Below are positions 5,908 through 64,000 of a stretch of 64,000 nucleotides of DNA, one piece after another. Below the pieces are notes generated by a model. That model did not search any database. It was not told where the DNA came from and worked only from the letters and a program-made list of their open reading frames with translations. The position numbers and the translations under genes are program-made. The DNA is from Heterostelium album PN500 (Eukaryota; Evosea; Eumycetozoa; Acytosteliales; Acytosteliaceae): NCBI RefSeq assembly GCF_000004825.1, contig NW_008805066.1, positions 930,001 to 994,000 of the forward strand, given 5' to 3'. Within the stretch, counting starts at the first letter, position 1. The number at the start of each line of letters is the position of its first letter.

Positions 5908-6048
5908 TTGAATTCAATCATTGAACAGTCAGTCAAACTTGATAAAATTGGATCAACTGAATAATAAATACAACAACAAACAACAATGATAATAAACAAT
6001 CTTATATTTTCATTACACAAGACAACTTTTGATATTGGTGATATCGAA
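5908..6048 (+). pseudogene. relic fragment of B-box/propeller family
   Basis: The stretch from about 5910 to 6020 matches the Ser/Thr-rich linker region of the intact paralogs (the part encoding NSIIEQSIKLD..IESTESINTT and QSYIF) with few differences. A second short match to the codons for IGDIE follows at 6031-6048 after an internal deletion. There is an in-frame stop and no start. It sits directly upstream of member A in the same orientation, so it is probably the leftover of a tandem neighbour. Confidence 0.8.
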
Positions 6049-6253
6049 TAATTCATCCAATGAAATGTAAGATATATATATAAATTATAAAGTAATAATC
6101 AATCACAATAACAGTTGATTTTTGTGTGAAGTTCAAAAAAAAAAAAAAATTAAATACAAAAAAAATTATGAACTTTAAAATTAATTTTTTTTTTTTTTGC
6201 ACAAATATATACTTTTCTATTTTGTAACATTTCTTAGATATTAAAAGTTAATA

Positions 6254-7988
6254 ATGACAATTAAATGTTTAAATCATCAAAGATCACACGAATTCATTTG
6301 TTATCAATGTAATTGTTTGATGTGTTCGAAATGTATAATCAATCATCACAAAGATCATCCTGATCATTCAGATAAAATCGAAGATATCGATGACATCAAA
6401 CATTCATTGAGTACATTAAAATTAGATGATATTATTGACACCACAACAACAAATAATAATAGTAATAGTAACAATTTCATTTCACAAATCAACAATAAAC
6501 TTAAATCTCTTTGGGAATCATTAAGATCATCGACATCCAGATATCAAAGATTATCAATAACAGAGAATGATATCAAACAACACTTTGAACAATTACATCA
6601 ATACCTAATCATTGAAGAACATAAACTACAAAGAGATATTATCAATGATAAACATACAATCACAAATCAAATCAATAATAATGTTAATCATTTAAAATAT
6701 TTATTAAATATTATAATGTTAATTAATAAATTCAGTAGTAGTGATAATAATAGTAAATGATAATAGTAGTGAAAATCAATCAATTATAACAGATACAACA
6801 ACATTATATTCAACAACAACAATAATGGAATCAATAACAACAAGTTCATCATTACAATCATTCATCAATCATAATAATCAAACATTATTCAATGAACACA
6901 ATTATAAAAATAATAATTATTTCAATATTGATGAACTTCTCAAACAACATTCCTCAGATTCATCATCATTATTATTAGATATCATTCATAAATACAACAA
7001 TCAATTCAATGAATCAACAACAAACACAGACAATAATAACTTAAGATTATCATCATATAAATTATCAATCAAACAACCTGATTTCAATCAATTGAATTCA
7101 ATCATTAAACAATCAATCAAATTTGATAACATTGAATCATCTGAATCAATAAATACAACAACAACAAACAATGATAATAAACAATCTTATATTTTCACAA
7201 CACACAAATCAAAAGGAGCAACACTGATCAACACATCAAACAACAATTCAATTGAAGAATTAAAGTTTAATTATCAATTTTATAATACATTCAACTCGAT
7301 TGTTTCAATTGGTGAATATATCTATATATTCGGTGGACATACCAATAAAAACAAATGGATTAAAATATCAATGAAATCGAAATCAATTGAACATATTGGT
7401 GACATCGAAGGAATCAAAGGTGATCTTGATATATCAGTTTGTTATGATGGTCAAGATCATATCTATTTAGTGAATGGTTATCATATAAAGAATAGAATTG
7501 ATCGATTCAACATCAAGACAATGAAGTTTGAATCATATCATCAATTACCTGATGGATATGGTATACAAGCATCGTCAATGATCTTCAAAGGTTCATTATA
7601 TTCAGTATCATACTATCACAATAAGCTATTTCAATTCGATTTAACAAACAGAACGATAACAGATCATCAAATTAACTTTTTTCCATTATCAGGATGTCAT
7701 GATAACAATGGAAATTTCTTCATAATAGGTTCAAACAAACGATTCATCAAATACAATGTTGAAACCAAACAAACAATGGATCCCAATGCTCTTCTTCCCA
7801 CAAATGGACATTTTTCTATAGTGATGTATCATCGAGAATCACCAACATCAAGTTATATCTATTCATTTGGTTCATCCAATGATAGTAATTTCAAATATTC
7901 AATCGAATCCAATCAATGTGAACCGTTCTTTAGAGATATTATAGATCACGATAGAGAGTGGTGTGCATGTACTTCATTTACAATTTAG
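6254..7988 (+). pseudogene. family member A: B-box/coiled-coil/propeller gene with one frame break
   Basis: The first frame encodes 168 residues: B-box zinc finger (C5, H8, C16, C19, C24, C27, then His residues to H38) and a coiled coil. It stops at 6758-6760 in an AT-microsatellite (GATAATAATAG-like). The rest, the Ser/Thr linker and the whole propeller, continues in another frame to 7988. The total span is one base more than a multiple of three, so a single slip in the microsatellite explains the break. All paralogs read straight through this point, so this copy is either freshly inactivated or carries an assembly error. Its promoter is unlike the one shared by B, C and D. Downstream the gene converges on vps52. 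Confidence 0.88.
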
Positions 7989-7996
7989 TATATTGG

Positions 7997-8067
7997 TGTC
8001 ACCTTCGCACTACTGGTGTTGGTAGCTGTCTTGGAACCACTCTTCTTGCTTGATGTCACCTTCGCAC
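7997..8067 (-). repeat. 57-bp spaced direct repeat, Lys/Ser-rich coding-like remnant
   Basis: The 14-mer TGTCACCTTCGCAC occurs at 7997-8010 and again at 8054-8067, a period of 57 bp (19 codons). On the minus strand one frame is open through both copies and reads Ala-Lys-Val-Thr, a Ser/Lys/Thr-rich 15-residue spacer, then Ala-Lys-Val-Thr again before a stop. The GC content is far above the flanks. It looks like the tail of a basic, Ser/Lys-rich protein gene dropped between two convergent genes. No start or larger gene was found. Confidence 0.5.
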
Positions 8068-8265
8068 AATTTACTAATTTTTTTTCTGTTTTTCAAGAAT
8101 AAATCATTTAGTATATTATACTAAACTATAGTTTTGCTACAGAGCACCTTTCAAAAAGAAAGATTTCAAAAATTTTTGCAAATAAAATTCATATCTTCTT
8201 CTTTTTGTGTAAATTTATTTTCTTTTTGTACATGAATTGATTTATTAGCTTATTTTTTATTTCTA

Positions 8266-11200: not shown

Positions 11201-11341
11201 ATCATCTTCAACATTATCATCATTCTGATTACTAACTAAACCAAAATCAATATTATTATTACTACTATTACTATTGATGTTTAATTTATAATCTAATTCA
11301 TTTAATACATTATTACTACTACTGCTATCATTATCATTCAT
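8266..11341 (-). CDS. vps52: Vps52, GARP/EARP tethering complex subunit
   Basis: Eight exons on the minus strand: 10933-11341, 10604-10847, 10336-10483, 10090-10257, 9642-9980, 9396-9572, 9061-9309 and 8266-8976. All introns are GT..AG, the phases close, and the product is 814 residues. Recognition rests on colinear blocks typical of Vps52: VRDFMLKLIISLRKPRTNVQ (exon 4); a YPLEQIFRSMNILLLD block (exon 6); DLRPHIV then YTRRFSEFY (exons 7-8); and NKSIFLINNYD in the last exon. The N-terminus is an Asn/Ser then Asp/Glu-rich extension, absent from animal Vps52 as I remember it. With Vps53 and Vps51 (plus Vps54 or syndetin), the protein tethers endosome-derived vesicles at the trans-Golgi or recycling endosomes. 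It converges with member A, and its start faces the 3' end of member B. Confidence 0.95.
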
Positions 11342-11763: not shown

Positions 11764-13530
11764 TTATTGATTTTTCGATAATGTAATTGATGTGGAAGCA
11801 CACAATGCTCTATTATGATTTTTAATATCTCTCAAGATTGGTTCACATTGATCGGTTTCAATTGAATATTTGAAATTACAATCATTAGATGAACCAAATG
11901 AATAGATATAACTTGATGTTGGTGATTCTCGATGATACATCAAAAATGAAGTCTGTGCATTTTTGTGAGGAATAGGAATGAGATTGATTGTTTGTTTGGT
12001 TTCAACATTGTATTTAATGAATCTTTTGTTTGTCACATCTGATATGAAGAAATTTCCATTGTTATCATGACATGCTGACCATGGTATAATGTCAATTCGG
12101 TGATCTGTTATCGTTCTGTTTGTTAAATCGAATTGAAATATCTTGTTTTTATCGTATGATATTGAATATAATGAACCTTTGAAGATCATTGATGATACTT
12201 GATGATTATATCCAACAGGTATTTGATGATATGATTCAAATTTCATTGTCCTGATGTTGAACCGATCAATTCTATTCGATATCTTTGAGCCATTCACTAA
12301 ATAGATATGATCTTGACCATCATAACAAACTGATATTAAACTATCACCTTTGATTCCTTCGATATCACCAATATGTTCAATTGATTTCGATTTCATTGAT
12401 ATTATAATCCATTTGTTTTGATTGTAATATCCACCGAATATATAGATATATTCACCAATTGAAACAATAGAGGAGAAAGTATCTGAAAATTGATATTCAA
12501 ACTCCAATTCTTCAATTGAATTGTTGTTTGATGTGTTGATCAGTGTTGCTCCTTTTGATTTGTTTGTTATAAAAATATAAGATTGTATTTTATCATTGTT
12601 GTTTGTTGTTGTTGTATTTATTGATTCAGTTGATTCAATGTTATCAAGTTTGATTGATTGTTCAATGATTGAATTCAATTGATTGAAATCAGGTTGTTTG
12701 ATTGATAATTTATATGATGATAATGTTAAGTTATTATTGTCTGTGTTTGTTGTTGATTCATTGAATTGATTGTTGTATTTATGAATGATATCTAATAATA
12801 ATGATGATGAATCGTTGGAATGTTGTTTGAGAAGTTCATCAATATTGAAATAATTATTATATTCATTGAATAATGTTTGATTATTATGATTGATGAATGA
12901 TTGTAATGATGAACTTGTTGTTATTGATTCCATTATTGTTGTTGTTGAATATAATGTTGTTGTATCTGTTATAATTGATGTATCCTCATTACTAATATTA
13001 ATATCTTTATTATTTAATCTATTAAATAACATTATAATATTTATTAAATATTTTAAATGATTAACATTATTATCGATTTGATTTGTGATTGTATGTTTAT
13101 CATTGATAATATCTCTTTGTAGTTTATGTTCTTCAATGATTAGATATTGATGTAATTGTTCAAAGTGTTGTTTGATTTCATTCTCTGTTGTTGATAATCT
13201 TTGATATCTGGATGTCGATGATCTTAATGATTCCCATATAGATTTAAGTTTATTGTTGATTTGTGAAATGAAAGAGTTTCTATTATTATTATCATCTATA
13301 TTATCTTTAGTATCATTATTAATTTGATTATTGGTTGTTGTTGTTGTGGTATCAATAATATCATCTAACTTTAATGTACTCAATGAATGTTTGATGTCAT
13401 CGATATCTTCGATTTTATCTGAATGATCAGGATGATCTTTGTGATGATTGAAGATACATTTTGAACACATCAAACTATTACATTGATAACAAATGAATTC
13501 AAATGATCTTTGATGATTTAAACATTTCAT
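11764..13530 (-). CDS. family member B: B-box/coiled-coil/kelch-like propeller protein
   Basis: Intact single-exon gene, 588 residues. The B-box has all ligands: C3, H6, C14, C17, C22, C25, H29, H33, H36. A coiled coil follows at ~90-175, then a Ser/Thr/Asn-rich linker and a C-terminal half with repeating YIYIFGG, IYLVNG, SLYSIS and SYIYSFG strands, typical of a kelch-like propeller. Member-specific residues in the variable patches include Ser-Leu in the two-codon cassette after IKGD, SKISN after LVNG, and a SDVTN loop. The 170 bp upstream match the promoters of C and D almost base for base, so this gene belongs to the B/C/D subgroup, which starts MKCLNHQ. TRIM-like proteins with this order act as oligomeric binding scaffolds. 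The ligand here is unknown. Confidence 0.93.
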   Translation of the reverse strand: MKCLNHQRSFEFICYQCNSLMCSKCIFNHHKDHPDHSDKIEDIDDIKHSLSTLKLDDIIDTTTTTTNNQINNDTKDNIDDNNNRNSFISQINNKLKSIWESLRSSTSRYQRLSTTENEIKQHFEQLHQYLIIEEHKLQRDIINDKHTITNQIDNNVNHLKYLINIIMLFNRLNNKDINISNEDTSIITDTTTLYSTTTIMESITTSSSLQSFINHNNQTLFNEYNNYFNIDELLKQHSNDSSSLLLDIIHKYNNQFNESTTNTDNNNLTLSSYKLSIKQPDFNQLNSIIEQSIKLDNIESTESINTTTTNNNDKIQSYIFITNKSKGATLINTSNNNSIEELEFEYQFSDTFSSIVSIGEYIYIFGGYYNQNKWIIISMKSKSIEHIGDIEGIKGDSLISVCYDGQDHIYLVNGSKISNRIDRFNIRTMKFESYHQIPVGYNHQVSSMIFKGSLYSISYDKNKIFQFDLTNRTITDHRIDIIPWSACHDNNGNFFISDVTNKRFIKYNVETKQTINLIPIPHKNAQTSFLMYHRESPTSSYIYSFGSSNDCNFKYSIETDQCEPILRDIKNHNRALCASTSITLSKNQ

Positions 13531-22208: not shown

Positions 22209-22340
22209 AAGTGTATCTTATTACCGCTTTTTATTTTATTTACCAACTATTTATTTAAAATTATTGATGAAGATAAAAATATTAAATGAATTAAATTCTT
22301 TGTTTTCGTTGATTATTTTAACCCATCTTTCTACATACTA

Positions 22341-22513: not shown

Positions 22514-24280
22514 ATGAAATGTTTAAATCATCAAAGATCTTTTGAATTCATTTGTTATCAATGTAATAATTTGATGTGTTCAAAGTGTAGCATCAGTCAC
22601 ATCAAAGATCATCCTGATCATTTCGATAGCTTGGAACATATCGATGACATCAAACACTCATTGAGCACATTAAAGTTAGATGATATTATTGACACCACCA
22701 CAACACCAACAACCAATAATCAAATTAAAAATGATACTAAAGATAATATAGATGATAATAATAATAGAAACTCTTTCATTTCACAAATCAAGAATAAACT
22801 TAAATCTATATGGGAATCATTAAGATCATCGACATCCAGATATCAATCATTTTCAACAACAGAGAATGATATCAAACAACACTTTGAACAATTACATCAA
22901 TATCTAACCACTGAAGAACATAAACTACAAAGAGATATTATAAATGATAAACATATAATCACAAATCAAATCGATAAAAATGTTAATCATTTAAAATATT
23001 TAATAAATATAATAATGTTATTTAATAAGTTAAATAAAGATATTAATAATAGTAATGAGGATACCTCAATTATATCGGATACAACAACATTATATTCAAC
23101 AACAACAATAATGGAATCAATAACAACAAGTTCATCATTACAATCATTCATCAATCATAACAATCAAACATTATTCAATGAACATAATTATAAATATAAT
23201 AATTATTTCAATATTGATTCACTTCTTAAACAAGATTACTCAGATTTATCATCAATATTATTAGATATCATTCATAAATACAACAATGAATTCAATGAAT
23301 CAACAACAAACACAGACAATAATAACTTAAGATTATCATCATATAAATTATCAATCCAACAACCTGATTTCAATCAATTGAATTCAATCATTGAACAATC
23401 AATCAAACTTGATCGAATTGAATCAACTGAATCAATAAATACAACAACAACAAACAACAATGATAAAATACAATCTTATATTTTCACAACACACCTTGAA
23501 AAAGGAGCAACACTGATCAACACATCAAACAACAATTCAATTGAAGAATTAATGTTTGATTATCAATTTTATGCTACATACTCCTCGATTGTTTCAATTG
23601 GTGAATATATCTATATATTCGGTGGAGATACCAATCAAAAAAAATGGATTAAAATATCAATGAAATCGAAATCAATTGAACATATTGGTGATATCGAAGG
23701 AATCAAAGGTGATCAATTAATATCAGTTTGTTATGATGGTCAAGATCATATCTATTTAGTGAATGGTTATAATATAAAGAATAGAATTGATCGATTCAAC
23801 ATCAAGACAATGAAATTTGAATCATATTTTAACTTACCTGTTGGTTATGGTCGACAAGTTTCATCAATGATCTTCAAAGGTTCATTATATTCAATATCGT
23901 TCGATCAAAATAAGATGTTTCAATTCGATTTAACAAATAGAACGATAACAGATCATCAAATTGACATTATACCATACTCAGGATGTCATGATAACAATGG
24001 AAATTTCTTCATAGTAGATTCAAAAAACAAACGATTCATCAAATACAATGTTGAAACCAAACAAACAATCAATCTCAATACAATTCTTCCCACAAAAGCA
24101 CAGATTACATTTGTGATGTATCATCGAGAATCACCAACATCAAGTTATATCTATTCATTTGGATTGTCAAATGATTGTAATTTCAAATATTCAATTGAAT
24201 CCAATCAATGTGAACCATTTTTAATAGATATTATTAATCATCCAAGATGGTTTTGTGCATCTACATCAATTTCATTATAA
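22514..24280 (+). CDS. family member C: B-box/coiled-coil/kelch-like propeller protein
   Basis: Intact, 588 residues, taken here as the reference for numbering. B-box ligands are C3, H6, C14, C17, C22, C25, H29, H33, H36. The coiled coil is about 90-170, with EHKLQRDIINDK near its end. A Ser/Thr/Asn linker at about 180-330 includes an invariant stretch, LYSTTTIMESITTSSSLQSF. The propeller is about 345-588. Patches that differ from the paralogs lie at about 353-357, 372-376, 401-402, 419-421, 439-447, 463-468, 488-490, 501-504, 524-532, 551-555 and 569-580. Between them the paralogs are nearly identical. In C the two-codon cassette is Gln-Leu (bases 23714-23719). There is no RING domain, so ubiquitin-ligase activity is not implied. 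Confidence 0.93.
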   Translation: MKCLNHQRSFEFICYQCNNLMCSKCSISHIKDHPDHFDSLEHIDDIKHSLSTLKLDDIIDTTTTPTTNNQIKNDTKDNIDDNNNRNSFISQIKNKLKSIWESLRSSTSRYQSFSTTENDIKQHFEQLHQYLTTEEHKLQRDIINDKHIITNQIDKNVNHLKYLINIIMLFNKLNKDINNSNEDTSIISDTTTLYSTTTIMESITTSSSLQSFINHNNQTLFNEHNYKYNNYFNIDSLLKQDYSDLSSILLDIIHKYNNEFNESTTNTDNNNLRLSSYKLSIQQPDFNQLNSIIEQSIKLDRIESTESINTTTTNNNDKIQSYIFTTHLEKGATLINTSNNNSIEELMFDYQFYATYSSIVSIGEYIYIFGGDTNQKKWIKISMKSKSIEHIGDIEGIKGDQLISVCYDGQDHIYLVNGYNIKNRIDRFNIKTMKFESYFNLPVGYGRQVSSMIFKGSLYSISFDQNKMFQFDLTNRTITDHQIDIIPYSGCHDNNGNFFIVDSKNKRFIKYNVETKQTINLNTILPTKAQITFVMYHRESPTSSYIYSFGLSNDCNFKYSIESNQCEPFLIDIINHPRWFCASTSISL

Positions 24281-25433: not shown

Positions 25434-27164
25434 ATGAAATGTTTAAATCATCAAAGATCACACGAATTCATTTGTTATCAATGTAATTGTTTGATGTGTT
25501 CAAAATGTGTAACCAGTCATTACAAAGATCATCCTGATCATTCAAAATGGGAACATATTGACGACATCAAACATTCATTGAGTACATTAAAATTAGATGA
25601 TATTATTGACTCCACAACAACAACCAATAATCAAATTAATAATGATTGTACTTATAATAATAATTTCATTTCACAAATCAACAATAAACTTAAATCTATA
25701 TGGGAATCATTAAGATCATCGACATACAGATATCAAAGATTATCAACAACAGAGAATGATATCAAACAACACTTTGAACAATTACATCAATATCTGATCA
25801 GAGAAGAACATAAACTACAAAGAGATATTATCAATGATAAACAAACAATCACAAATCAAATCGATAAAAATATTAATCATTTAAAATATTTAATAAATAT
25901 AATAATGTTATTTAATAGATTAAATAATAATGATATTAATAATGAGGATACGTCAATTATAACAGATACAACAACATTATATTCAACAACAACAATAATG
26001 GAATCAATAACAACAAGTTCATCATTACAATCATTCATCAATCATAATAATCAAACATTATTCAATGATAAATATAATAATAATTTCAATATTGATGAAC
26101 TTCTCAAACAACATTCCAACGATACAGAATCAATATTATTAGATATCATTCATAAATACAACAATCAATTCAATAAATCAACAACAAACACAGACAATAA
26201 TAACTTAAGATTATCATCATATAAATTATCAATCAAACAACCTGATTTCAATCAATTGAATTCAATCATTAAACAATCAATCAAATTTGATAACATTGAA
26301 TCAACTGAATCAATAAATACAACAACAACAACAACAAACAACAATGATAATAAACAATCTTATATTTTCATAACAAACCAATCAAAAGGAGCAACACTGA
26401 TCAACACATCAAATAACAATTCAATTGAAGAATTACATTTTGATTATCAATTTTCAGATACATACTCCTCGATTGTTTCAATTGGTGAATATATCTATAT
26501 ATTCGGTGGATATACCAATGAAAACAAATGGATTAAAATATCAATGAAATCGAAATCAATCGAACATATTGGTGATATCGAAGGAATTAAAGGTGATACC
26601 TTTGTGTCAGTTTGTTATGATGGTCAAAATCATATCTATTTAGTGAATGGTTATAATATAAAGAATAGAATTGATCGATTCAACATCAAGACAATGAAAT
26701 TTGAATCATATCATCAATTACCTGTTGGATATGATCGTCAAGTATCATCAATGATCTTCAAAGGTTCATTATATTCAATATCATTCAATCGAAATAAGAT
26801 ATTTCAAATAGATTTGACAAATAGAACGATAACAGATCATCAAATTGACATTATACCATGGTCAGCATGTCATGATAACAATGGAAATTTCTTCCTATTA
26901 GATACAAGAAACAAACGATTCATCAAATACAATGTTGAAACCAAACAAACAATCAATCTCAATGCTATTCCTCTAACAAATTTACAGTTTTCATACATGA
27001 CGTATCATCGAGAATCACCAACATCAAGTTATATCTATTCATTTGGTTATTCTAATGATTTTAATTTCAAATATTCAATTGAATCCAATCAATGGGAACC
27101 ATTCTTTAGAGATATTATTAATCATAAAAGAGCATGGTGTGCATCTACATCAATTACATTATAG
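25434..27164 (+). CDS. family member D: B-box/coiled-coil/kelch-like propeller protein
   Basis: Intact, 576 residues. It is shorter than C mainly through fewer Asn/Asp codons after the B-box and after the coiled coil. The B-box is complete, with CVTSHYKDHPDH as the third part. Variable patches: SDT before the YSSIV strand, Thr-Phe in the cassette (bases 26598-26603), FNRNKI, WSA before CHDN, LDTRN, IPLTNLQFSY, YSNDF and the HKRAW tail. The cassette codons ACC TTT and the following GTG are the only changes in a stretch otherwise identical to C. One aspartate of the IYLVNG approach (DGQDH) is Asn (DGQNH). Confidence 0.93.
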   Translation: MKCLNHQRSHEFICYQCNCLMCSKCVTSHYKDHPDHSKWEHIDDIKHSLSTLKLDDIIDSTTTTNNQINNDCTYNNNFISQINNKLKSIWESLRSSTYRYQRLSTTENDIKQHFEQLHQYLIREEHKLQRDIINDKQTITNQIDKNINHLKYLINIIMLFNRLNNNDINNEDTSIITDTTTLYSTTTIMESITTSSSLQSFINHNNQTLFNDKYNNNFNIDELLKQHSNDTESILLDIIHKYNNQFNKSTTNTDNNNLRLSSYKLSIKQPDFNQLNSIIKQSIKFDNIESTESINTTTTTTNNNDNKQSYIFITNQSKGATLINTSNNNSIEELHFDYQFSDTYSSIVSIGEYIYIFGGYTNENKWIKISMKSKSIEHIGDIEGIKGDTFVSVCYDGQNHIYLVNGYNIKNRIDRFNIKTMKFESYHQLPVGYDRQVSSMIFKGSLYSISFNRNKIFQIDLTNRTITDHQIDIIPWSACHDNNGNFFLLDTRNKRFIKYNVETKQTINLNAIPLTNLQFSYMTYHRESPTSSYIYSFGYSNDFNFKYSIESNQWEPFFRDIINHKRAWCASTSITL

Positions 27165-39301: not shown

Positions 39302-41116
39302 ATGATAAATAAAAGTTTAGATAAACATAAAACATACGATTTCGTTTGTTATAAATGTTTTAGTTTTGCTTGTTCAAAATGTATGCTCGATCATATCAAA
39401 GAGAATCCTGATCATTCAAAGGAGTGTAAACATTTAGATGAAATCGAACATTCATTGAACAATATGAATTTAGATGATTTTATTGACACCATCCCCACAA
39501 CAACGATAACAACAACAACGACAACAACAACGAACAATAATTATAAAATTAATGAAAGTACCGGTACTAATAGTAGTAATGATAATAATAGCAGTAATAA
39601 TAAAATTTCACAAATCAATAATGAAATTCAAATGATATGGGAATCATTAAGATCATCGTCTTCACTCTACCAAAGATTATCAACAACAGAGAATGATATC
39701 AAACAACACTTTGAACAATTACATCAATATCTGATCATTGAAGAACATAGACTACAAAGAGATATTATCAATGATAAACATACAATCGAAAACCATATCA
39801 ATTTTTATATGGATAGAATGAAAACTTTAATACTTGTTATAAATATATATAATAAAGTAAATAGTAATAATGACAACCATGACGATGATAGTGATAATAG
39901 TAGTGATGATCAATCAATAATTGAAGACACAGCATCATTATATTCAACAACAACAATAATGGAATCAATTCGATCATGTTCATCATTACATTCATTCATC
40001 AATGATAGTAAAAGTACATTATTAAATGAATTTTCTTTTTTCAATACTGATATCGATGAACTTCTCAAACAACCCTCCGATGATGTTGATGCAAGATCAG
40101 TATTGTTAGATTCCATTTATCTTTTCAACAATGAACTTAAATCAACAAAAAACATAGACAATGACTTATCTTTATTATCATCATATAAATTATCAATCAA
40201 ACAACCTGATTTCAATCAATTGAATTCAATCATTAAACAATCAATCAAACTTGATAAGATTGGATCAAATGAATCAATAAATACAACAACAACAACAAAC
40301 AACAATGATAATAAACAATCTTATATTTTTATAACACACAAACCAAATGGAGCAACACTGATCAACACATCAAACAACTATTCGGTTGAAGAATTAAAGT
40401 TTGATTATCAATTTACTCAAACATACAACTCGATTGTTTCAATTGGTGAATATATCTATATATTCGGTGGATATGGTAATATAAACAAATGGATGAAAAT
40501 ATCAATGAAATCGAAATCAGCTGAACATATTGGTGATTTTGAAGGTGATTCTAATATATCAGTTTGTTATGATGGTCAAGATCATATCTATTTGGTGAAT
40601 GGTTATCATAAAAAGAACAATATTGATCGATTCAATATCAAAACTCTGACATTTGAAAGATTATATCAATTACCTCAAGGCTATGGTACACAGGGATCAT
40701 CCATGATCTTCAAAGGTTCATTATATTCAATATCACAAAATCAAAACAGGTTATTTGAATTCGATTTGACAAATAGAACGATAGAAAACCATAACATTCA
40801 CTTTATACCATTATCAGCATGTCATGATAACAATGGAAATTTCTACATATTGGATCGAATAAACAAACGATTCATCAAATACAATGTTGAAACCAAGCAA
40901 ATCAGCAAACTCAATGCTACTTCTCTTACAAATGGACAGCAATCATTTGTAATGTATCATCGAGAATCACCAACATCAAGTTATATCTTTTCATTTGGTC
41001 CATCTCTTGATTGTAATTTCAAATATTCAATCGAATCCAATCGATGTCAACCATTCTTTAGAAATATTAAAAATCACAATAGAGCGTGGTGTGCATCTAC
41101 TTCAATTACATTATAA
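39302..41116 (+). CDS. family member F: divergent B-box/propeller protein with lost zinc ligands
   Basis: Intact, 604 residues, the most divergent member. The N-terminus MINKSLDKHKTYDFVCYKC replaces the first Cys of the B-box by Ser and the paired His by Lys. Later KENPDH replaces one of the final His by Asn. At least one zinc site is therefore probably gone. The coiled coil, IIEEHRLQRDIINDKH, and the propeller are kept. In the propeller, three residues before the cassette are missing (DFEGD instead of DIEGIKGD) and the cassette is Ser-Asn (40550-40555). Silent differences from the other members are more common than among A-E, so it branched earlier. The 3' end lies ~95 bp from the 3' end of the minus-strand FNIP gene. 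Confidence 0.9.
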   Translation: MINKSLDKHKTYDFVCYKCFSFACSKCMLDHIKENPDHSKECKHLDEIEHSLNNMNLDDFIDTIPTTTITTTTTTTTNNNYKINESTGTNSSNDNNSSNNKISQINNEIQMIWESLRSSSSLYQRLSTTENDIKQHFEQLHQYLIIEEHRLQRDIINDKHTIENHINFYMDRMKTLILVINIYNKVNSNNDNHDDDSDNSSDDQSIIEDTASLYSTTTIMESIRSCSSLHSFINDSKSTLLNEFSFFNTDIDELLKQPSDDVDARSVLLDSIYLFNNELKSTKNIDNDLSLLSSYKLSIKQPDFNQLNSIIKQSIKLDKIGSNESINTTTTTNNNDNKQSYIFITHKPNGATLINTSNNYSVEELKFDYQFTQTYNSIVSIGEYIYIFGGYGNINKWMKISMKSKSAEHIGDFEGDSNISVCYDGQDHIYLVNGYHKKNNIDRFNIKTLTFERLYQLPQGYGTQGSSMIFKGSLYSISQNQNRLFEFDLTNRTIENHNIHFIPLSACHDNNGNFYILDRINKRFIKYNVETKQISKLNATSLTNGQQSFVMYHRESPTSSYIFSFGPSLDCNFKYSIESNRCQPFFRNIKNHNRAWCASTSITL

Positions 41117-50401: not shown

Positions 50402-52156
50402 TTAATCTGTCTCATTTTGATGTTTTTCAAAGTGGCTTTGTGCAAAATAAAGGCCACAGTGTTCACATCTGTAGTTTGAACTTAATTTGCATTTTGGAAC
50501 ACAATTGCATGTCTTTTTGTGTGATTGTTTGGAAAGAGTTCTTTTTTTGAGGTGGATGAAGAAGATGTGGTGGAGGTGATTGGTATGATACGAAGGCTAT
50601 AGTGTCTGGAAATATGACGAGAAATATCACGAATGAACTCTAGAAGTGATATCTGATGCCATTCATTGTAAATAATCCATGCATTGACAATGGAAGCGTA
50701 AAGAAAGTATTTAAAGATATTTAACCACCATCTACGAGATTTCAAAGAATACTGGTATTGACCAATATTTTTGTTGTTTCTGTCGACATGTCCCATGTTA
50801 GATCGATAAAGGCTCAACTCTTGAGGATATTCCTTAGTTATTGTTCCACTATTTACATATTTCACATCTTTAAAATGTTCGCCATTTGTTGAGAATGTTG
50901 AAAGGAGATTGAAACTTTTACTATCATTAATTCTCCAGAGCATCATCTTTTTATCTAAGCACTTGGAAACATAGTCTACCTCACTATTTTCAGAGCTATG
51001 TCTTAGACTATATGGTAGTCCGGCTGCCGTATTCTTGATTGTACCAGTTGCATAGTATTGTTTCTTTTCGTATAAATCTGAAAAAATATCTATGCTACTG
51101 TAGTAGTTGTCCATATAAACGTGATATTTCTGATCTTTAGGTAAATCTTTGAGAAGATATAGGATCACATCTTGGACTAATCCTCTTTCAGAAGATGTAC
51201 GAGATGTATCTTTACCTGCTTTACCTTGGTAGATCATAAAGGAATAGAGGTAACCTTTACTATCAGCTTTCTTGAACACCTTGAAGCCCCATTTAGTAGG
51301 TTTAGCAGGCATATATTGAATGGAAGGATGATTGTGACGACTACCGATCATATCTTCATCGATTGATATAATGGTTGTTGGACTCCAATAATATTTGAAT
51401 TTGCTTTCCAAGTGTTTAATCAAAGGTCTAATTTTATAAAAAATATCATTAGGATCCTTTTGATTGTTATTTGACAAATGAATAGTTGAAAAAATGCTGG
51501 TAAATTGATTTCTAGACATTATACTTCGAACTGGATCGTATCCTTCACCATTTTCACACCAATAATCAGAAAAAGATGGTAATTTGCAGATTCCCATCCA
51601 TAGCAAGACACCAATAAATCCCATAATGATTTCATATGTACATTCTGATTGGAAATGTTGTTTAAACTCAACATTTTTACCCATTTGATCCATGTATCTG
51701 TTGGTTTCTGCTGTTATGTGTGTAATAATAGTCCGATCAAAGAATAGTGTAAAGATTTCATACGGAGTTGATGCCTTCAGATTTTTAGTGCAATTACCAC
51801 TAAAATCGGGTTCAGTGATTTTTTCAGAGGAAAAATTTAAATCTGTCCAACCATGTTCGCTTTTTTCTCCACGACTCATAATTTCATCAATTAGATTTGG
51901 TTTAGTTTGATTTGGGTTCCACCCATTGGATCTACAAATTTCTTTCAATTCTTCGACCTTCATTCTATTAAAATATTCATCATTTTCCTCAAAATCTTGA
52001 TTTTTACTGTTAGAAACATAGTAGGAAAAACTAATATACTATATTTTATTTACCTCGATCATCTAAAGTATTTTCCAGCAAATGTTGTTGAATTTCATTT
52101 TCATCATCAGTTTCCACTTCTTGGGCAATATTGTCCTCATCCATCAATATTGATGA
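50402..52156 (-). mobile_element. piggyBac-type DNA transposon (ends not located)
   Basis: The span covers the transposase frame, a C-terminal zinc-binding segment in another frame (down to the stop at 50402-50404) and an upstream coding segment starting at 52156. That upstream segment reads MSSILMDEDNIAQEVE, is acidic and ends at CGAGGTAAATA. It may be a first exon with a short intron, but the phases do not close, so a second small frame break or a different splice site is needed. TTAA duplications and inverted ends were searched by eye and not found. Confidence 0.8.
50482..51963 (-). CDS. piggyBac transposase (main frame)
   Basis: 493 codons. Residues 1-32 (MKVEELKEICRSNGWNP..) form a SAP-like DNA-binding motif. 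The DDE_Tnp_1_7 catalytic domain follows, with Asp202 in IISIDEDMIG, Asp285 in HVYMDNYYSS and Asp394 in SNMGHVDRNNK, the three aspartates of the piggyBac family. RRWWLNIFKYF completes the fold. After the A7 run near 50535 this frame ends in a non-homologous tail. The neighbouring frame gives KKTCNCVPKC then YRCEHCGLYFAQSHFEKH, the cysteine-rich C-terminal domain that binds the element's ends in this family. One A fewer than needed explains it. The element could thus be recently inactivated, or the run miscounted. Confidence 0.93.
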   Translation of the reverse strand: MKVEELKEICRSNGWNPNQTKPNLIDEIMSRGEKSEHGWTDLNFSSEKITEPDFSGNCTKNLKASTPYEIFTLFFDRTIITHITAETNRYMDQMGKNVEFKQHFQSECTYEIIMGFIGVLLWMGICKLPSFSDYWCENGEGYDPVRSIMSRNQFTSIFSTIHLSNNNQKDPNDIFYKIRPLIKHLESKFKYYWSPTTIISIDEDMIGSRHNHPSIQYMPAKPTKWGFKVFKKADSKGYLYSFMIYQGKAGKDTSRTSSERGLVQDVILYLLKDLPKDQKYHVYMDNYYSSIDIFSDLYEKKQYYATGTIKNTAAGLPYSLRHSSENSEVDYVSKCLDKKMMLWRINDSKSFNLLSTFSTNGEHFKDVKYVNSGTITKEYPQELSLYRSNMGHVDRNNKNIGQYQYSLKSRRWWLNIFKYFLYASIVNAWIIYNEWHQISLLEFIRDISRHISRHYSLRIIPITSTTSSSSTSKKELFPNNHTKRHAIVFQNAN

Positions 52157-53517: not shown

Positions 53518-54598
53518 ATGACAAGTAAATGTGTAAAACATCAACAATCAAATGAATTCATTTGTTATCAATGTAATAGTTTGATGTGTTCAATATGTAT
53601 CATCAGTCATAACAAAGATCATCCTGATCATTCAAATGTGCAAAAATCGATGACATCAAACAATCATGGGGTACATTTAAATTTGCTGATATTACTGACA
53701 GCACCACAAAAACAACAACAAACATTGATAGAACTGTATCTACACCATCAATAAATACAACAACATCAACAAACAACAATGATAATAAACAATCTTATAT
53801 TTTCATAACACACGAATCATACGGAGCAACACTGATCAACACATCAAACAACAATTCAGTTGAAGTATTAAAGTTTGATTATAAATTTAATAATACATGC
53901 CCCTCGATTGTTGCAATTGGAGAAAATATCTATATATTCGGGTGGAGAATACAATGCAAATAAATGGATTAAAATATCAATGAAATCGAAATCAATTGAA
54001 CATTTTGGTATTATAGAAGGAATCAAAGGTGATCGTAATATTTCAGTTTGTTATGATGGTCAAGATCATATCTATTTAGTGAATGGTGCCGGTCTTAACT
54101 ATAGAATTGATCGATTCAACATCAAAACAATGAAATTTGAATCATATCATCAATTACCTTTTGGCTATGGTATAAGCATCGTCAATGATCTTCAAAGGTT
54201 CATTATATTCAATATCGTTCAATCAAAATAAGCTATTTCAATTCGATTTGACAAGTAGAACGATAACAAATCATCGAATTGACTTTATACCAACATCAAC
54301 ATGTCATGACAACAATGGAAATTTCTTTATATTAGATACAACAAACAAACGATTCATCAAATACAATGTTGAAACCAAACAATCAATCAATCTTAATGCA
54401 ATATCTCTAACAAATTTACAGTTTTCATGTGTAATGTATCATCGAGAATCACCTACATCAAGTTATATCTTTTCATTTGGTAATTCTCTTGAATATAATT
54501 TCAAATATTCAATTGAATCCAATCAATATGAACCATTCTTTAGAGATATTATTAATCACAAAAGATACTGGTGTGCATCTACTTCAATTACATTTTAA
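53518..54598 (+). pseudogene. family member G: decayed and internally deleted B-box/propeller gene
   Basis: The B-box is intact (C5, H8 ... H38; MTSKCVKHQQSNEFICYQC), but the sequence then jumps: the coiled coil and most of the Ser/Thr linker are missing, and the propeller begins in another frame. Two further frame changes occur, near 53940 (an extra G in TCGGGTGG) and near 54180 (inside the SSMIFKGS codons). Variable patches are still those of a distinct member: Arg-Asn cassette at 54034-54039, AGLNY, TST before CHDN, LDTTN and NSLEY. Its last 137 codons are open. Confidence 0.88.
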
Positions 54599-57770: not shown

Positions 57771-57981
57771 ATTTCATAATATCATTGTTTTTTCATGATA
57801 TGTGTGGTCACTTGAGATTAAGTTTTAGAAAATTCAATTTTTTATTTTTAATTTTAATTTGTTCAAAAATAGTCACCACATTTGTTTAAAAATTATTGTT
57901 ATAATCTTATCTTGTTTGTTTATTTAGTCAATACCTTCAAAAAATCAAATATTGATAGAAAGTTAATAATAATTAGAGAAA

Positions 57982-58303
57982 ATGACAATTAAATGTTTGA
58001 ATCATCAAAGATCACACGAATTCATTTGTTATCAATGTAATAGTTTGATGTGTTCAAAATGTATTACCATTCATATCAAAGATCATCCTGATCATTCCGA
58101 TAAAATAGAACATATCGATGAAATCAAGGATTCATTGAGTACATTAAAGTTAGATGATATTATTGACACCACAACAACAACAAACAATAATGACAGCACT
58201 AACAGCAGTAATAATAATTTTCATTCTCAAATCAAAAATAAAATTAAATCTCTTTGGGAATCATTAAGATCATCGACATCCAGATATCAATCATTATCAA
58301 CAA
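57982..58303 (+). pseudogene. family member H, 5' part (B-box) cut off by a LINE
   Basis: B-box complete (C5, H8, C16, C19, C24, C27, ITIHIKDHPDH), linker, and the first helix of the coiled coil up to ..SRYQSLST. Host homology ends at 58303, and the frame runs on only five codons into the LINE. Together with the downstream part, and counting the duplicated 9 bp once, the host sequence is a multiple of three with the length of the intact paralogs (~587 residues). The gene was therefore whole when the LINE landed. It shares leader sequence (CAATACCTTCAAAAAATCAA) with the gene beginning at 63994. Confidence 0.93.
58295..58303. repeat. target-site duplication, left copy
   Basis: TATCAACAA, identical to 59436-59444, immediately left of the LINE. 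The right copy continues into CAGAGAATGATATC, as in all paralogs. Confidence 0.93.
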
Positions 58304-59435
58304 ACTACACTCGGTGAGGAGAAACCAAGACCTTATGAACTATGCATTTGAAACGAAGAACCCACTATACACCAGCGCAATGAGACACATGGAATCATTT
58401 GACTACAAACTCACATTCAGTAAAGATGGAAAATGGCAAATAGATAAGGATGGAGAAACAATACTACACAATCACGATGGCAGCCCTACGATCACAAACA
58501 CCATTTCAGCTCACCTCAAGAATGTATATAGAGAACAACACCCAATCGAACCAACAGCTAGAACCAAATTCTGGATCAAACACAGAGAAAACATGGCAAG
58601 AAACTGGATAGCCCAATGGAGATTCATACCTCGACATGTTGACCACCACCTATGGCTTGCACTGACAGAGAACATGAACACCCTGTCAGCAAAAGGAATC
58701 ATGGGAAATGCCGTAACCGATCCAAAATGTAGAAAGTGCCATTCCGCAAGAGAGTCCATAGAGCACATTGTATCCTCATGCCACGCGATGAAACTACTAT
58801 GTATAGTACCAAGACACAACATGGTAGTGAAAGTGATACTCAAAGAGATGCTGAAGTTCCACAGAATACCTTACAAGCCAGGCGCAGTCTACCAGTCTGA
58901 TACCATTGAGATCCTACATGAAGCCAGAATAGATAATGCACTAACCAAAACCAACAAACCAGATCTAATCGTTAAGAACCGAACCAAGAAATCAATCAAA
59001 ATCATCGAAATATCAGTACCATATGACAACAACATTGTTAAAAGAAGCCGAGATAAGATTGAAAAATACCAACCACTAGCAGCCGCACTTAAGAAGAGTA
59101 ACCCAGACCACAAGGTAGCAGTCATACCTATAATCATTGGTGCCTTTGGTACATACAACACAGAGACAACCAAAGAAGGTCAACCTACGGTCCACGACCT
59201 ACCCTACTATCTGAAGCAGCTAGACATCAGAGACCACTCCTACACTTTAAATAAGATCATCCGATCTTCAATCACCGGAACAGCCAGCCTGATCAGCCAC
59301 TGGCAAGGGTTAAAACTGTAAAATTCAAACTAATGTCCAATAGAAGTCAACATACTAAAGCAACCAACTCTGTTTTAATTAAACACAAATTTAAATAAAA
59401 TATGAACACTTTTAAAATAAAAAAAAAAAAAAAAA
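58304..59435 (+). mobile_element. 5'-truncated non-LTR retrotransposon (LINE) with restriction-like endonuclease
   Basis: 1132 bp ending in an A-rich tail, flanked by a perfect 9-bp duplication: a target-primed insertion. One frame is open from the left junction to 59321 (~339 codons). It encodes the end of an ORF2-type protein: a C-x2-C-x8-H-x4-C knuckle (CRKCHSARESIEHIVSSC), then TNKPDLIV, an IKIIEISVPYDNN strand and RSRDKIEKYQPL. That is the KPD..(D/E)...K..KY pattern of the restriction-like endonuclease found in R2, R4, NeSL and CRE-type LINEs. The reverse transcriptase itself is missing, so the copy is 5'-truncated. The known tRNA-targeting TRE elements of Dictyostelium have an apurinic-type nuclease instead. 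The intact frame and exact duplication suggest a young insertion. Confidence 0.92.
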
Positions 59436-60886
59436 TATCAACAACAGAGAATGATATCAAACAACATTTTGAACAATTACATCAATATCTAATCATTGAA
59501 GAACATAAACTACAAAGAGATATTATCAATGATAAACATACAATCACAAATCAAATCGATAAAAATATCATGAATTTGAAATATTTAATAAATATTATAA
59601 TATTATTTAATAAATTAAATAATAATAATAATAGTAGTGATAATAATAGTAATGGTATTATTAATAACGAGGATACATCAATTATACCAGATACAACAAC
59701 ATTATATTCAACAACAACAATAATGGAATCAATAACAACAAGTTCATCATTACAATCATTCATCAATCATAATAATCAAACATTATTCAATGATAAAAAT
59801 AATAATTATTTCAATATTGATGAACTTATCAAACAACATTCCTCAGATTCATCATCAATATTATTAGATATCATTCATAAATACAACAATCAATTCAATG
59901 AATCAACAACAAACACAGACGATAATAACTTAACATTATCATCATATAAATTAACAATCAAACAACCTGATTTCAATCAATTGAATTCAATCATTGAACA
60001 ATCAATCAAACTTGATAACATTGAATCAACTGAATCAATAAATACAACAACAACAACAAACAACAATGATAATAAACAATCTTATATTTTCACAACACAC
60101 CAATCAAAAGGAGCAACACTGATCAACACATCAAACAACAATTCAATTGAAGAATTAAAGTTTGATTATCAATTTGATTTTATATACTCCGCTATTGTTT
60201 CAATTGGTGAATATATCTATATATTCGGTGGATATACCAATGAAAACAAATGGATTAAAATATCAATTCGATCGAAATCAATTGAACATATTGGTGATAT
60301 CGAAGGAATCAAAGGTGATTATTTTATATCAGTTTGTTATGATGGTCAAGATCATATCTATTTAGTGAATGGTTGGAAAATAAAGAATAGAATTGATCGA
60401 TTCAACATCAAAACAATGAAATTTGAATCATATCATCAAATACCTTTTGGATATGATCGTCAAGTATCATCAATGATCTTCAAAGGTTCATTATATTCAA
60501 TATCATACAATCAATATAAGCTATTTCAATTCGATTTAACAAACAGAACGATAATAGATCATCAAATTGACATTATACCATTCTCAGCATGTCATGACAA
60601 CAATGGAAATTTCTTCATATTAGATCGATTAAACAAACGATTCATCAAATACAATGTTGAAACCAAACAAACAATCAATCTCAATGCTGTTCCTCTCGCA
60701 AATGCATATTATCCATTTGTGATGTATCATCGAGAATCACCAACATCAAGTTATATCTATTCATTTGGCTATTCCAGTAATTGTAATTTCAAATATTCAA
60801 TTGAATCCAATCAATGTGAACCAATCTTTAGAGATATTATTAATAATAACAGATCGTGGTGTGCTTCCACATCAATTACATTTTAA
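59402..60886 (+). pseudogene. family member H, 3' part (coiled coil and propeller), possibly re-expressed from a LINE-tail ATG
   Basis: The host resumes at 59436/59445 and stays open to 60886. An ATG inside the LINE tail (59402) is in frame and adds only MNTFKIKKKKKI before the host coiled coil, giving 494 residues: no B-box, but complete coiled coil, linker and propeller. Patches: DFI before YSAIV, SIRSKS (Arg for Lys/Met), Tyr-Phe cassette (60320-60325), WKI, YNQYKL, FSA, LDRLN, VPLANAYYPF, YSSNC and a NNRSWC tail. Since the frame is undamaged, loss of the front half may be recent, or the rear half may still be made. Confidence 0.85.
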
Positions 60887-61093
60887 TAAATAAGTTTTGA
60901 TAAAATAAATATAACACTTTTTATTTCTTTATTATTTTCATTTCTTTTCATTTACACAGAATTTTGGTTTTCAGGAGAACCCCTTCAAAAAATTAGTGCG
61001 AGAAAAAAAAAAGTTAAATACCAGAACAAAAAAGAAAAAATAAATCAAATAAATAAATACCAAAAAGTGATAGATTGTATTAAAAGTTAATTA
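60887..61093. other. 3' flank of member H
   Basis: AT-rich. A short mixed stretch, GGAGAACCCCTTCAAAAAA, at ~60975. No gene. Confidence 0.5.
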
Positions 61094-61274
61094 TCATTTA
61101 CGTTTATTGGTAGAATTTTTTGAAAATGAACTTGTAGAATTATTACTATCAGATGTATAAATTTCTAAAACTTGGTTAGTTGAGCATTGATTTTCATGTG
61201 GTATAGTATCAGTACAATCATCATTGTAAGTAACATTTGGCAATTTTGTTTGTAAATTGGCAGGTGCAGATGTT
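61094..61274 (-). pseudogene. possible terminal exon of an unrecognised minus-strand gene
   Basis: From an AG acceptor at 61275-61276, the minus strand is open to a TGA at 61094-61096. It reads TSAPANLQTKLPNVTYN, a Thr/Asn/Ser-rich part with two cysteines, and a basic end NSTNKRK. Composition and splice site suggest real coding origin. An upstream part in the module (CESKC, then CSHCMVQCRNVIYDNN) is broken by a stop. It is probably the decayed 3' end of the module gene. Copy 1 of the module lacks this end. Confidence 0.35.
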
Positions 61275-61320
61275 CTAACTCTTTACAGTTTTCAATTAGA
61301 TACACAAATAGATCCCACAA

Positions 61321-62958
61321 TTGATCATTGCTAACCAAATTATTATCATAGATGACATTTCTACATTGTACCATACAATGTGAACATCAACCATACATAG
61401 AGATACATTTTGATTCACAATAAATATTGTGGATGGTGGATGCCTATTCGAGATGATATTGTATAAGTTAAGCAGTATAACTCAGCTTGATGAGGCATGC
61501 CAATTTAGAGATATGACCACCACCGCTATTAATCAGTACGCCGACTTAGCACACCGCTTTGGAATAGTAGAAAGACATGGAAGATTGATCGAGTAGTAGA
61601 GTCGATAGCTCTCCGGCGAGGATCATGACGGATGACAGTGTATTTGGTCAAGTTTGTCAGGCAAGATGCATCTCTGGTCTCAAAACATTCGCGATAACAA
61701 ATATCACGAACAGAGACTGATAGATTGGATAACATTCGGTTTTTGTAGGATAGACGTAGTAGAAAGCATCTCCAATATCCATTGGTGTTGGTGAGTAGCA
61801 CTTCAACAGTCCAAACACAGATTGTGTAGCATCCAAGCGTAATGCATTGTCGGCAATGGAAGATAGCCAAATCTTTACCTTAGCACCTCAGCATCTAGTT
61901 TCTTTCACTTCGAGATTGGCAGTCAGACTCAATGCCATTGACCAACAGAAGAACCTCTTACAATAACTTAACAGTTTGTAATCTATATATTAGGATAGCA
62001 GATCTATCTACACCCGTTTCATATATCTAACTTATCACCTTTTTTTTAATTTTAATAAAGTCATATAGTGATCAAATAATTATACGTTGATAATAGATTG
62101 ACGAATAAGGGACAGTTAGACTTTTATGAGACAATTATTTATTTGTTAAAATATGTAATAATAATAAATTGGAATATATATAACTAAGAGTAATGTCCTC
62201 TACATCAAAGAATAGAGTTTAATAATAGTGTTTAAAAAAAAATCTGTATTTCTTTTAAATCATCATTATTGTTGTGTAATTTTAGTTGTTCTATTTGTTA
62301 TAATTGCTCTTTCTTAACTACTTCTGTTGGAAGTCTCATTTATTAAAGTTTGGACTCTGCTTTTATTGTTATACATGTCGTTACGATCTCTTTCTCTTTC
62401 TCTTTCCATGATAAATGTGAATGAATCTAAAAATCTTCGATCAAAACGTAGGTGGTTGTGGATCGTTAGTATTAATCTTATACAGTATATAGAATTTTGA
62501 AAAGCGACACACTACTTACCTACATTATTCATCTTTCATTTCATTTATGATAAATAATCAAAGTCAAGACAGACCGATGATATAATTGCCACCCACTTTA
62601 ACAGCCAATCTCATAACGGCACAGAAGGTTACAATAAGAACTACTAATTGAATGCAATTCAATTACATGTAAATGTTTAAGAGAGAAAGAGGTTGCTGCT
62701 AGCAAAACTACAATTAAACATGTTATTTGACGAGAACCATAAGTATCTTTGTGATTTAATTATCAAGATAGAGTGGCTACATTCCAGAGATCATCACCAA
62801 ATCGCAAACAAAGATTGGTAGAGTACCAACACCTGGCATCTGGTGAAGCAATGAGAGCTGAAGACCAATAGAAACAACTACACCTGCTCTACAATTGTCG
62901 AATCAACTCTTCTCCAAATGCATTCTTCAGACTCGCTTGACGTACGTATTACACAGTT
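61321..62958. repeat. segmental duplication, copy 2 of ~1.64-kb module
   Basis: Partner of 56130-57770. The minus-strand frame here is 113 codons, and differs from copy 1 at its end because of a 4-base insertion (GATTGATCGAG versus GATCGAG at ~61584). Such a change in the frame, together with stops elsewhere, argues that the frame is not under protein constraint. The copy lacks the 33-bp tandem repeat and has TTACATGTAAATG-type extra bases at ~62664. Confidence 0.85.
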
Positions 62959-63850
62959 CGACAAGTAGTTCCGATACTATTCAAACTTCATAGGTAGCCA
63001 AAAAAAAAGAGTTAGAAAGATAATTTAACAAATTAATTTCCAAAGATAGCCATGATTACCTTAGATTTAACTCAAGTGACCACACATATTGTTCTAAAAT
63101 TAACATTTTAGAATTCTAATAATCAAATCAACCGACACTTCAATAATTTATTAAGAATTCAACTATCACAATTCAAACAGTTTATGGACACGATTTCAAA
63201 TAACTTAAATTAATAATCCAGCTGTTTAACAATAATTAAATATATTAGAATAATATCAACATTCAGTGAATCAACAAAATATCAATCTACCAAAGTTAAC
63301 ATAAAGAAATAACCAACAAGTTAATCTACAATGAATACCAAACTAGTTAATCAAGAACAGATTTCTGAGATTGAGCAACTGCACTGGTCGAAGAAATCCA
63401 ACAGTATAAATATCTTGGAAATCCATTATAGAAATTAATTAATTATTCAACATTATTCAACATTACCAAATATTATTCTTATCTTCAAATTGTAAAATAA
63501 ATAAATTATTATCTTTAAATATTATACTGTAAATTATATCTCTAAATTTTATTACATTCATTAAATCTATATTCCTCGTACCAAAACTATTCCTAAAGTA
63601 ATTCCTAATCTTATATCAAAGTTGTCAGTATTATATTTATATGTTTATATGTATATTATTACCATTGTAAAATAACATATATCATGAAAAAACAATGATA
63701 TTATGAATTTTTTTCGGTTTAGTATTTACCAAACAGAAAAATTACATATGGTTTAAAATTAAGTTTGACATTCTTTGTTGATCTTTATCGTTTCGTGTAT
63801 TTAAAGAAAAAAAATGCTAAAAAAACCATCAAAAACTTTAAATCGAGTTT
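62959..63850. other. extra ~890 bp between module copy 2 and the next family promoter
   Basis: At the equivalent place in copy 1 there are only ~47 bp. The 19-mer CTCAAGTGACCACACATAT at 63071-63089 is the exact reverse complement of 57798-57816, so part of this stretch is inverted relative to copy 1. Otherwise AT-rich without gene. Confidence 0.7.
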
Positions 63851-63993
63851 TTAAGTTTTAGAAAATTCAATTTTTTATTTTTTATTTTAATTTGTTCAAA
63901 AATAGTCACCACATTTGTTTAAAAATTATAGTTATTTAGTCAATACCTTCAAAAAATCAAATATACATAGAAAGTTAATAATAATTAGAGGAA
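63851..63993 (+). promoter_or_regulatory. promoter of the next family member, duplicate of the member H promoter
   Basis: Matches 57818-57981 (for example AAAATAGTCACCACATTTG and TAGTCAATACCTTC) apart from a ~22-bp gap. It ends at an ATG in the same context. Confidence 0.8.
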
Positions 63994-64000
63994 ATGACAA
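63994..64000 (+). CDS. start of a further B-box/propeller family member (cut by window edge)
   Basis: Only ATGACAA is in the window. The start of A, E and H is ATGACAATTAAATG, and the upstream leader is that of member H, so a family gene very probably continues to the right. Confidence 0.7.

Follow-up and report, generated by a model that had tools for sequence, protein, structure and literature searches.

A clustered family of B-box/coiled-coil/kelch genes in Heterostelium album with hypervariable loops on one predicted face of the propeller

A 64 kb stretch of the Heterostelium album genome (contig C5, positions 930001-994000, hereafter the window; the genome comprises 32.9 Mb in 39 contigs) contains five intact and three broken members of a family of genes encoding a B-box, a putative coiled coil and a C-terminal kelch propeller. 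We report that members of this family differ chiefly in short patches of the propeller, that codons in these patches are under positive selection, and that the rest of the propeller is held by purifying selection. The patches can be read as the B-C and D-A loops on one face of a six-bladed propeller, and we consider it probable (about 0.7), on the grounds of sequence, that these genes together form a recognition repertoire of RING-less, TRIM-like proteins, probably located in the cytosol.

Variable loops and selection on the propeller

The initial annotation of the window had proposed eleven variable patches spaced by about 22 residues, that is half a kelch blade. Because these patches had been picked by eye on members of the window, they were tested on 13 members located outside the window (10 of them intact), none of which had been used in defining them. 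Residues are numbered throughout according to member C, the reference. In the outside set, the entropy was 1.43 bits in the patches versus 0.30 elsewhere, and none of 270 circular rotations of the mask gave a difference as large; the 10 intact members alone gave 1.29 versus 0.29 bits (0 of 270 rotations). The periodogram of the outside set peaked at 22.0 residues, a height reached by none of 1000 block shuffles, in agreement with the proposed half-blade spacing.

The positions of the patches were then compared with the kelch repeat as described for Keap1, in which strand B terminates in a double glycine, the ligand face consists of the B-C and D-A loops and blade 1 is closed by the last strand A (PMC4668279). 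In member C, the ends of strand B read, in blade order, YIFTTH, IYIFGG, IYLVNG, LYSIS, FFIVD and IYSFG, and a variable patch lies directly after each of them (residues 328-330, 372-376, 419-421, 463-468, 501-504 and 551-555). The double glycine is present at residues 370-371, before the second of these patches, and the other blades have one glycine or none. The other six patches are found just ahead of each strand A, the last one ahead of the C-terminal CASTSI strand. Since the patches either follow strand B or precede strand A, they would correspond to the six B-C and six D-A loops, and this repeat grammar, with six repeats and twelve loops of period 22, would place all of them on one face of a six-bladed kelch propeller, as had been proposed. 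The loops, all on the + strand of member C, are as follows.

23495..23503, +, loop BC1, residues 328-330, overlooked in the initial annotation
23570..23584, +, loop DA1, residues 353-357
23627..23641, +, loop BC2, residues 372-376, immediately after the double glycine
23714..23719, +, loop DA2, residues 401-402
23768..23776, +, loop BC3, residues 419-421
23840..23854, +, loop DA3, residues 443-447
23900..23917, +, loop BC4, residues 463-468
23969..23983, +, loop DA4, residues 486-490
24014..24025, +, loop BC5, residues 501-504
24080..24109, +, loop DA5, residues 523-532
24164..24178, +, loop BC6, residues 551-555
24233..24253, +, loop DA6, residues 574-580, preceding the C-terminal strand expected to close blade 1

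All eleven patches proposed earlier were recovered, but BC1 had been missed and some patches had been drawn too wide: residues 439-442, 489 and 569-573 show only one to three residue types in 20 copies. These 20 propellers form our main alignment, which contains 15 intact genes (one on C24, the other 14 from the at least 16 on C5) and five further propellers from broken or partial copies (members A and H, C5:925010, C5:1121071 and C5:786030); C5:1018191 and C5:1024073 were left out, as were further broken copies. Among them, the top loops are on average 42% identical and the rest 89%, and the combination of residues at the hot positions is distinct in all 20. By loop class, mean entropy is 1.78 bits for B-C, 1.62 for D-A, 0.09 for A-B and 0.28 for C-D loops, and 0.35 for strands and the rest. 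In 13 divergent paralogues on other contigs, the loops are 25% identical and the remaining propeller 52% (0 of 270 rotations). The borders of the twelve loops were drawn after the variability had been seen, which affects the loop classes, the identities of divergent paralogues, and the silent halo and loop correlations given below; the rotation and period tests, the counting of substitutions in the outside set, the site model on the original patches, the class omegas and the hot-codon test are independent of these borders.

By the counting method, nonsynonymous (dN) and silent (dS) divergence in the outside members amounted to 0.444 and 0.304 in the patches (ratio 1.46) and to 0.064 and 0.121 in the propeller scaffold (ratio 0.53); members of the window gave ratios of 1.59 and 0.49, respectively. 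We also fitted a site model with a free silent rate, using our own grid code (not HyPhy or PAML) without calibration by simulation. In the 20 propellers, the posterior probability that the nonsynonymous rate beta exceeds the silent rate alpha was above 0.9 at 28 of the 63 codons of the original patches compared to 11 of the 208 others (twice the log-likelihood difference, 2dlnL, 57), and the same model applied to the 13 outside members gave 20 of 63 compared to 7 of 208 (2dlnL 34). With our loop borders, the site posterior exceeded 0.95 at 23 of 60 top-loop codons and at 6 of 211 others.

Mean omega over the 63 patch codons of the outside set was 1.25, 1.93, 1.25 and 2.40 on trees of the propeller, the scaffold, the patches and the N-terminal part, respectively, the last tree comprising the 10 intact genes only; the bootstrap lower bounds were 0.80, 1.00, 0.80 and 1.25. 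Scaffold omega was 0.52 on all four trees, with 0.52-0.80 for A-B loops and 0.42 for C-D loops, both with wide intervals. Finally, 25 codons chosen as hot in the window only, 21 of which lie in top loops, were fitted in the outside members on the four trees with two values of kappa (eight fits). Omega ranged from 1.51 to 5.22 with 2dlnL from 4.9 to 21.5, and the bootstrap lower bound was at least 1.00 in seven of the eight fits (exactly 1.00 in one). Combined, these results indicate that positive selection on loop codons is real, whilst its size depends on the tree. The site model and the omega above 1 at out-of-sample hot codons bear out the diversifying selection originally proposed for the loops, and a scaffold omega of about 0.5 does the same for purifying selection on the scaffold.

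Domain architecture and genomic setting

Most members have an N-terminal B-box (degenerate in member F) followed by a helical segment, a linker and the propeller, which occupies residues 318-588 in member C. A genome scan with the B-box model PF00643 matched member B with 28.2 bits, above the cut-off; by hmmscan, members B, C, D and E scored 22.0, 17.5, 16.7 and 13.6 bits, all under the cut-off of 24.1, and member F, in which a serine takes the place of the first B-box cysteine, had no match. Candidate zinc ligands of member C are C3, H6, C14, C17, C22, C25, H29 and H33/36, which we take to be the B-box pattern. The helical segment lacks proline and has a hydrophobic period of 3.34-3.56 residues, whose strength was reached by no more than 5 of 300 shuffles in any of the 13 evaluable members (two of 15 were not evaluable). 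Kelch_6 (PF13964) matched all six members scanned, with two stretches per protein and E values from 5e-18 to 2e-21. In the 10 copies looked at, an ATG is located at the start of the B-box or at most two codons from it.

Within C5 730-1150 kb, none of the 10 genome matches to PF15227 and none of the 63 to PF13639, two RING models, was found, and the six members scanned had no Pfam match to SPRY/PRY (B30.2), BTB, F-box, NACHT, HET or WD40. The proteins had been compared with TRIM proteins. The B-box and the C-terminal binding domain agree with this comparison but, because no RING was found with the two models, the family as predicted from its domains lies outside the TRIM proteins in the strict sense (RBCC). 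Elsewhere, at C12:725970-726677, a RING (29.1 bits, just below cut-off) and a B-box occur in one frame of 925 aa, a candidate classical TRIM that might be TRIM37-like. In profile searches against solved structures, the whole protein gave nothing at E 0.01. The propeller gave eight matches at E up to 10, the best being the NHL repeats of PknD (E 0.015, in blade 5) followed by Hfq, an antibody, a transmembrane barrel and the kelch protein epithiospecifier (E 3.2).

The members and fragments of the family in the window, in window coordinates, are listed below.

5908..6026, +, family-member fragment (linker preceding the propeller) about 350 bp 5' of member A; in blastn, 112-125 bp match other members at 83-89.5% identity (offset -352)
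6254..7988, +, member A, with B-box, coiled coil and propeller; the frame is interrupted around 6730-6760, with an in-frame TGA and a pair of overlapping open reading frames
11764..13530, -, member B, intact, 588 aa
22514..24280, +, member C, intact, 588 aa, numbering reference
25434..27164, +, member D, intact, 576 aa
34894..36636, +, member E, intact, with an ATG at 34894 next to the B-box; the mechanical open reading frame starts at TTG 34831
39302..41116, +, member F, intact, 604 aa; the most divergent in the window (66% amino acid identity to C)
53527..54595, +, broken member with an internal deletion (B-box start, then propeller), from tblastn pieces
57982..58303, +, member H, 5' part: B-box and beginning of the coiled coil
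58304..59435, +, 5'-truncated non-LTR retroelement in the coiled-coil region of member H; zf-RVT open reading frame, poly-A end
59436..60886, +, member H, 3' part: coiled coil and entire propeller, open frame
63993..64000, +, start of the next, broken member (protein match C5:994000-995736, three stops)

The retroelement in member H is flanked by a 9-bp target duplication (58295-58303 and 59436-59444), and its zf-RVT match scored 26.4 bits, marginally below the cut-off of 27.5. Members had been called near-identical at the DNA level, which is a slight overstatement given 86.6-91.6% identity within the set of A, B, C, D, E and H and 77-82% in pairs including F.

A protein search of the genome with member C gave 89 matched stretches. 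At least 16 copies on C5 are intact, with an open frame over essentially the entire query; all lie at 862-1137 kb, and five of them are those of the window. By our own count, copies or fragments occur at about 36 sites in the 737-1141 kb region of C5, and further copies are found on eleven other contigs at identities down to 39%. Genome-wide there are at least 109 B-box and at least 150 kelch matches. When all 109 B-box rows and 141 of the 150 kelch rows were considered (nine second matches near another row being dropped), 41 of the 109 B-box matches had a kelch match 0.6-1.9 kb downstream on the same strand. From these counts and the copies on other contigs, the window therefore represents one recent branch of a larger family. 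Distant relatives with 27-57% identity to member C in pieces lie just left of the window (C5:912306-913496, 916193-916984 and 922143-923898), and more clusters of B-box and kelch frames occur at C8:356-410 kb, C9:1.58-1.85 Mb and C10:2.10-2.26 Mb. There was no relative among 97 pattern matches in viral contigs.

Ordinary genes are interspersed with the members of the window (DnaJ, hemocyanin-like, M1 aminopeptidase, BRCT, SH3 and FNIP). The hemocyanin/phenoloxidase-like gene (20630-21994) has a GC content of 0.46, far above its surroundings. The M1 aminopeptidase (ERAP1-like, 27831-30658, GC 0.47), between members D and E, spans two open reading frames and is perhaps one gene with a short intron. 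FNIP-repeat genes are present within the cluster at 32861-34036 (-) and 41212-42735 (-), together with an open DDE_Tnp_1_7 (piggyBac-type) transposase frame at 50482-51963 (-), which has a SAP match below the cut-off. A counting-factor match is weak and likewise below the cut-off; like the FNIP-repeat genes, it is in line with dictyostelid DNA.

Silent divergence and the origin of loop diversity

Silent divergence is 2-2.5 times higher in the patches than in the scaffold. At invariant codons it amounts to 0.11, 0.10, 0.07 and 0.09 at distances of 1 to 4 codons from a loop, 0.044 and 0.049 at 5 and 6, 0.066 and 0.067 at 7 and 8, and 0.009 at 9, a modest halo since 7 of 270 rotations are as strong. 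We prefer the halo as evidence because a test on same-residue codons inside the loops can be inflated by convergence. The correlation of distances between loops is on average 0.06, compared to 0.20 between scaffold pieces; this low value may reflect saturation or the noise inherent in short patches.

In nine nearby copies, identity of the coding regions ranges from 75 to 92%. Among the 28 pairs of eight copies, the upstream 100 bp are alike in six and the downstream 100 bp in one, and homology mostly ends at the coding ends. Long shared runs were detected at p<0.05 in 46 of 105 pairs; the null does not account for differences in diversity between parts of the gene, and residues 241-311 hold 8 of the 14 strongest runs. 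Similarity is greater between genes that lie closer together (rho 0.37, p 0.0035), as local duplication would also give. Of eight runs of a neighbour-incompatibility test, the one on 15 full genes with a 5-site window was below 0.05 (6 of 300); the remaining seven gave 19 to 168 of 300, including 67 and 168 for the propeller scaffold alone. Silent divergence is about 2-3 times higher at residues 1-100 than at residues 201-317, as if exchange faded toward the 5' end of the gene. Because silent divergence is elevated both within the loops and next to them, and homology mostly does not extend past the coding ends, homogenisation of the scaffold is suggested: if exchange acted on the coding scaffold while selection spared the loops, the silent contrast, the low correlation between loops and the mostly unrelated flanks would be explained. 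A recent burst combined with focal mutability is the alternative. The gene conversion originally put forward for the scaffold is thus favoured by the flank break, the silent halo and the shared runs, but the incompatibility tests are weak and it is unproven.

In the recognition repertoire that we favour, the twelve loops would join into a single continuous surface for binding, as they do on Keap1, and every copy of the gene would have a specificity of its own. The B-box and coiled coil would oligomerise and relay a common signal, and it is because of this common signal that the rest of the protein would stay alike. Diversity would come from gene birth and death, with homogenising scaffold exchange kept out of the loops by selection, which is partly supported by the data above. 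The most likely use would be the cytosolic binding of non-self proteins from bacteria, viruses or retroelements. Several observations weigh against this reading. Only 16 of the approximately 36 places on C5 are intact, the B-box of member F is degenerate and no solved structure matches the propeller convincingly. The interval of the patch-average omega includes or touches 1 on three of the four trees, and the bottom-face (A-B, C-D) loops change too little for a tight omega. Lastly, silent rates are raised in the loops as well, and therefore part of the loop divergence is due to age or mutation rather than selection.

If the loops were hot spots of mutation or conversion, the variation would arise from a focal diversifying process alone, without selection; the raised silent differences in the patches and at invariant codons one or two positions away (0.10-0.11, versus 0.044-0.049 at five or six) fit this. 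However, many loop codons have a nonsynonymous rate above the silent one even when the latter is left free, also out of sample, and the halo is modest (7 of 270 rotations), making this quite improbable. Such a process could instead act together with selection, as in an antigen-receptor-like repertoire in which an invariant framework carries twelve hypervariable loops on one face and the variants are supplied by short-tract exchange among dozens of paralogues, or by local mutability, and kept by selection. This would account both for the elevated silent diversity of the loops and their immediate neighbourhood and for loops being almost uncorrelated with one another, and we hold it to be a doubtful but conceivable elaboration. 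Relaxed constraint in a decaying, pseudogene-rich family, in which loops vary since nothing holds them, would agree with the many broken copies, and propeller loops generally vary more than strands. Yet hardly any change is seen in the bottom-face loops of these proteins, scaffold omega is about 0.5 with hot codons above 1, and the pattern is present in the 10 intact copies outside the window; we regard this explanation as very unlikely indeed.

Two further explanations accept selection and differ in what is bound. The proteins might be adaptors for many endogenous substrates, comparable to the F-box/kelch proteins of plants or the BTB/kelch proteins of animals, whose divergence followed duplication and involved no partner in conflict. 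The D-A and B-C loops are indeed the normal substrate face of kelch propellers (PMC4668279), but a replacement excess at the same loop codons in many copies and a near-random loop identity at 52% scaffold identity go beyond what one-off specialisation needs, and no RING, BTB or F-box match was found in the proteins scanned. We judge this somewhat unlikely. Alternatively, the proteins could mark or read individual identity among amoebae, in the manner of the HNWD propellers of a fungus, in which the same two loop classes are selected (PMC1805685); a clustered family with birth and death would suit such allorecognition. However, protein starts at or just before the B-box in the copies looked at suggest a cytosolic location, and dozens of paralogues in one genome suit a repertoire better than an allelic marker, so that allorecognition appears a doubtful explanation.

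Relation to known systems

The order of B-box, coiled coil (putative here) and propeller is shared with TRIM-NHL and RING-less TRIM proteins of animals. In TRIM-NHL proteins the NHL propeller replaces the kelch propeller, although blade 5 is weakly NHL-like here (E 0.015), and to our knowledge these animal proteins do not form a large diversifying family. FinTRIMs carry a RING and often B30.2, unlike the family described here, which yielded no match to either and has a kelch propeller as its binding domain. Both, however, are large duplicated B-box/coiled-coil families under positive selection, as described for the finTRIM (ftr) genes of teleost fish (PMC2657112). In the HNWD genes of Podospora anserina (het-d, het-e, kin family), which act in non-self recognition, the D-A and B-C loops of the WD40 propeller are under positive selection (PMC1805685). 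Selection on these top-face loops, a paralogous family and broken copies are common to both systems, as may be a homogenised remainder. The HNWD genes encode a NACHT-type protein with WD40 repeats that are alike within a gene and exchanged between genes (PMC1805685), whereas our family has unlike, kelch-type blades, diversity per position, a B-box and coiled coil and no NACHT match. With Keap1 and other BTB-kelch proteins, the family shares the double glycine of strand B and, as predicted from the sequence of member C, would share the six-bladed kelch plan, the D-A/B-C ligand face and the C-terminal closing strand (PMC4668279); it differs in having no BTB match and in its many copies with hypervariable loops, compared to one conserved pocket. 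From the cited accounts, the HNWD propellers (PMC1805685) and the finTRIMs (PMC2657112) are the nearest working parallels.

In dictyostelids, the expansion of B-box proteins is already in print in the form of counts: the B-box and FNIP-repeat family OG5_126643 has 241, 381, 206 and 55 members in Ddis, Asub, Ppal and Dfas, respectively (PMC4334915). This large, lineage-dependent B-box expansion resembles ours, but FNIP repeats are named rather than kelch, a word absent from the main text of that paper, and the passage around its table holds no analysis of loops or selection (PMC4334915). OG5_126643 may contain the present family or be its sister. In a review of amoeba defence, the one TRIM named for D. 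discoideum is a TRIM37 orthologue, presented as a model for TRIMs before their expansion (PMC5758549), and the main text of a paper on dictyostelid family expansions does not mention B-box, kelch or FNIP (PMC8535579). In our searches of the openly accessible literature on dictyostelid B-box proteins, we found neither B-box/kelch genes nor variable loops described, subscription papers being outside these searches. What is new here is the selected, hypervariable propeller face, which gives the large B-box families a testable role. If this reading is true, the cluster would be a convergent answer of an amoeba to the problem met by fish with finTRIMs and by a fungus with HNWD propellers, the recognition of many changing targets by one stable frame.

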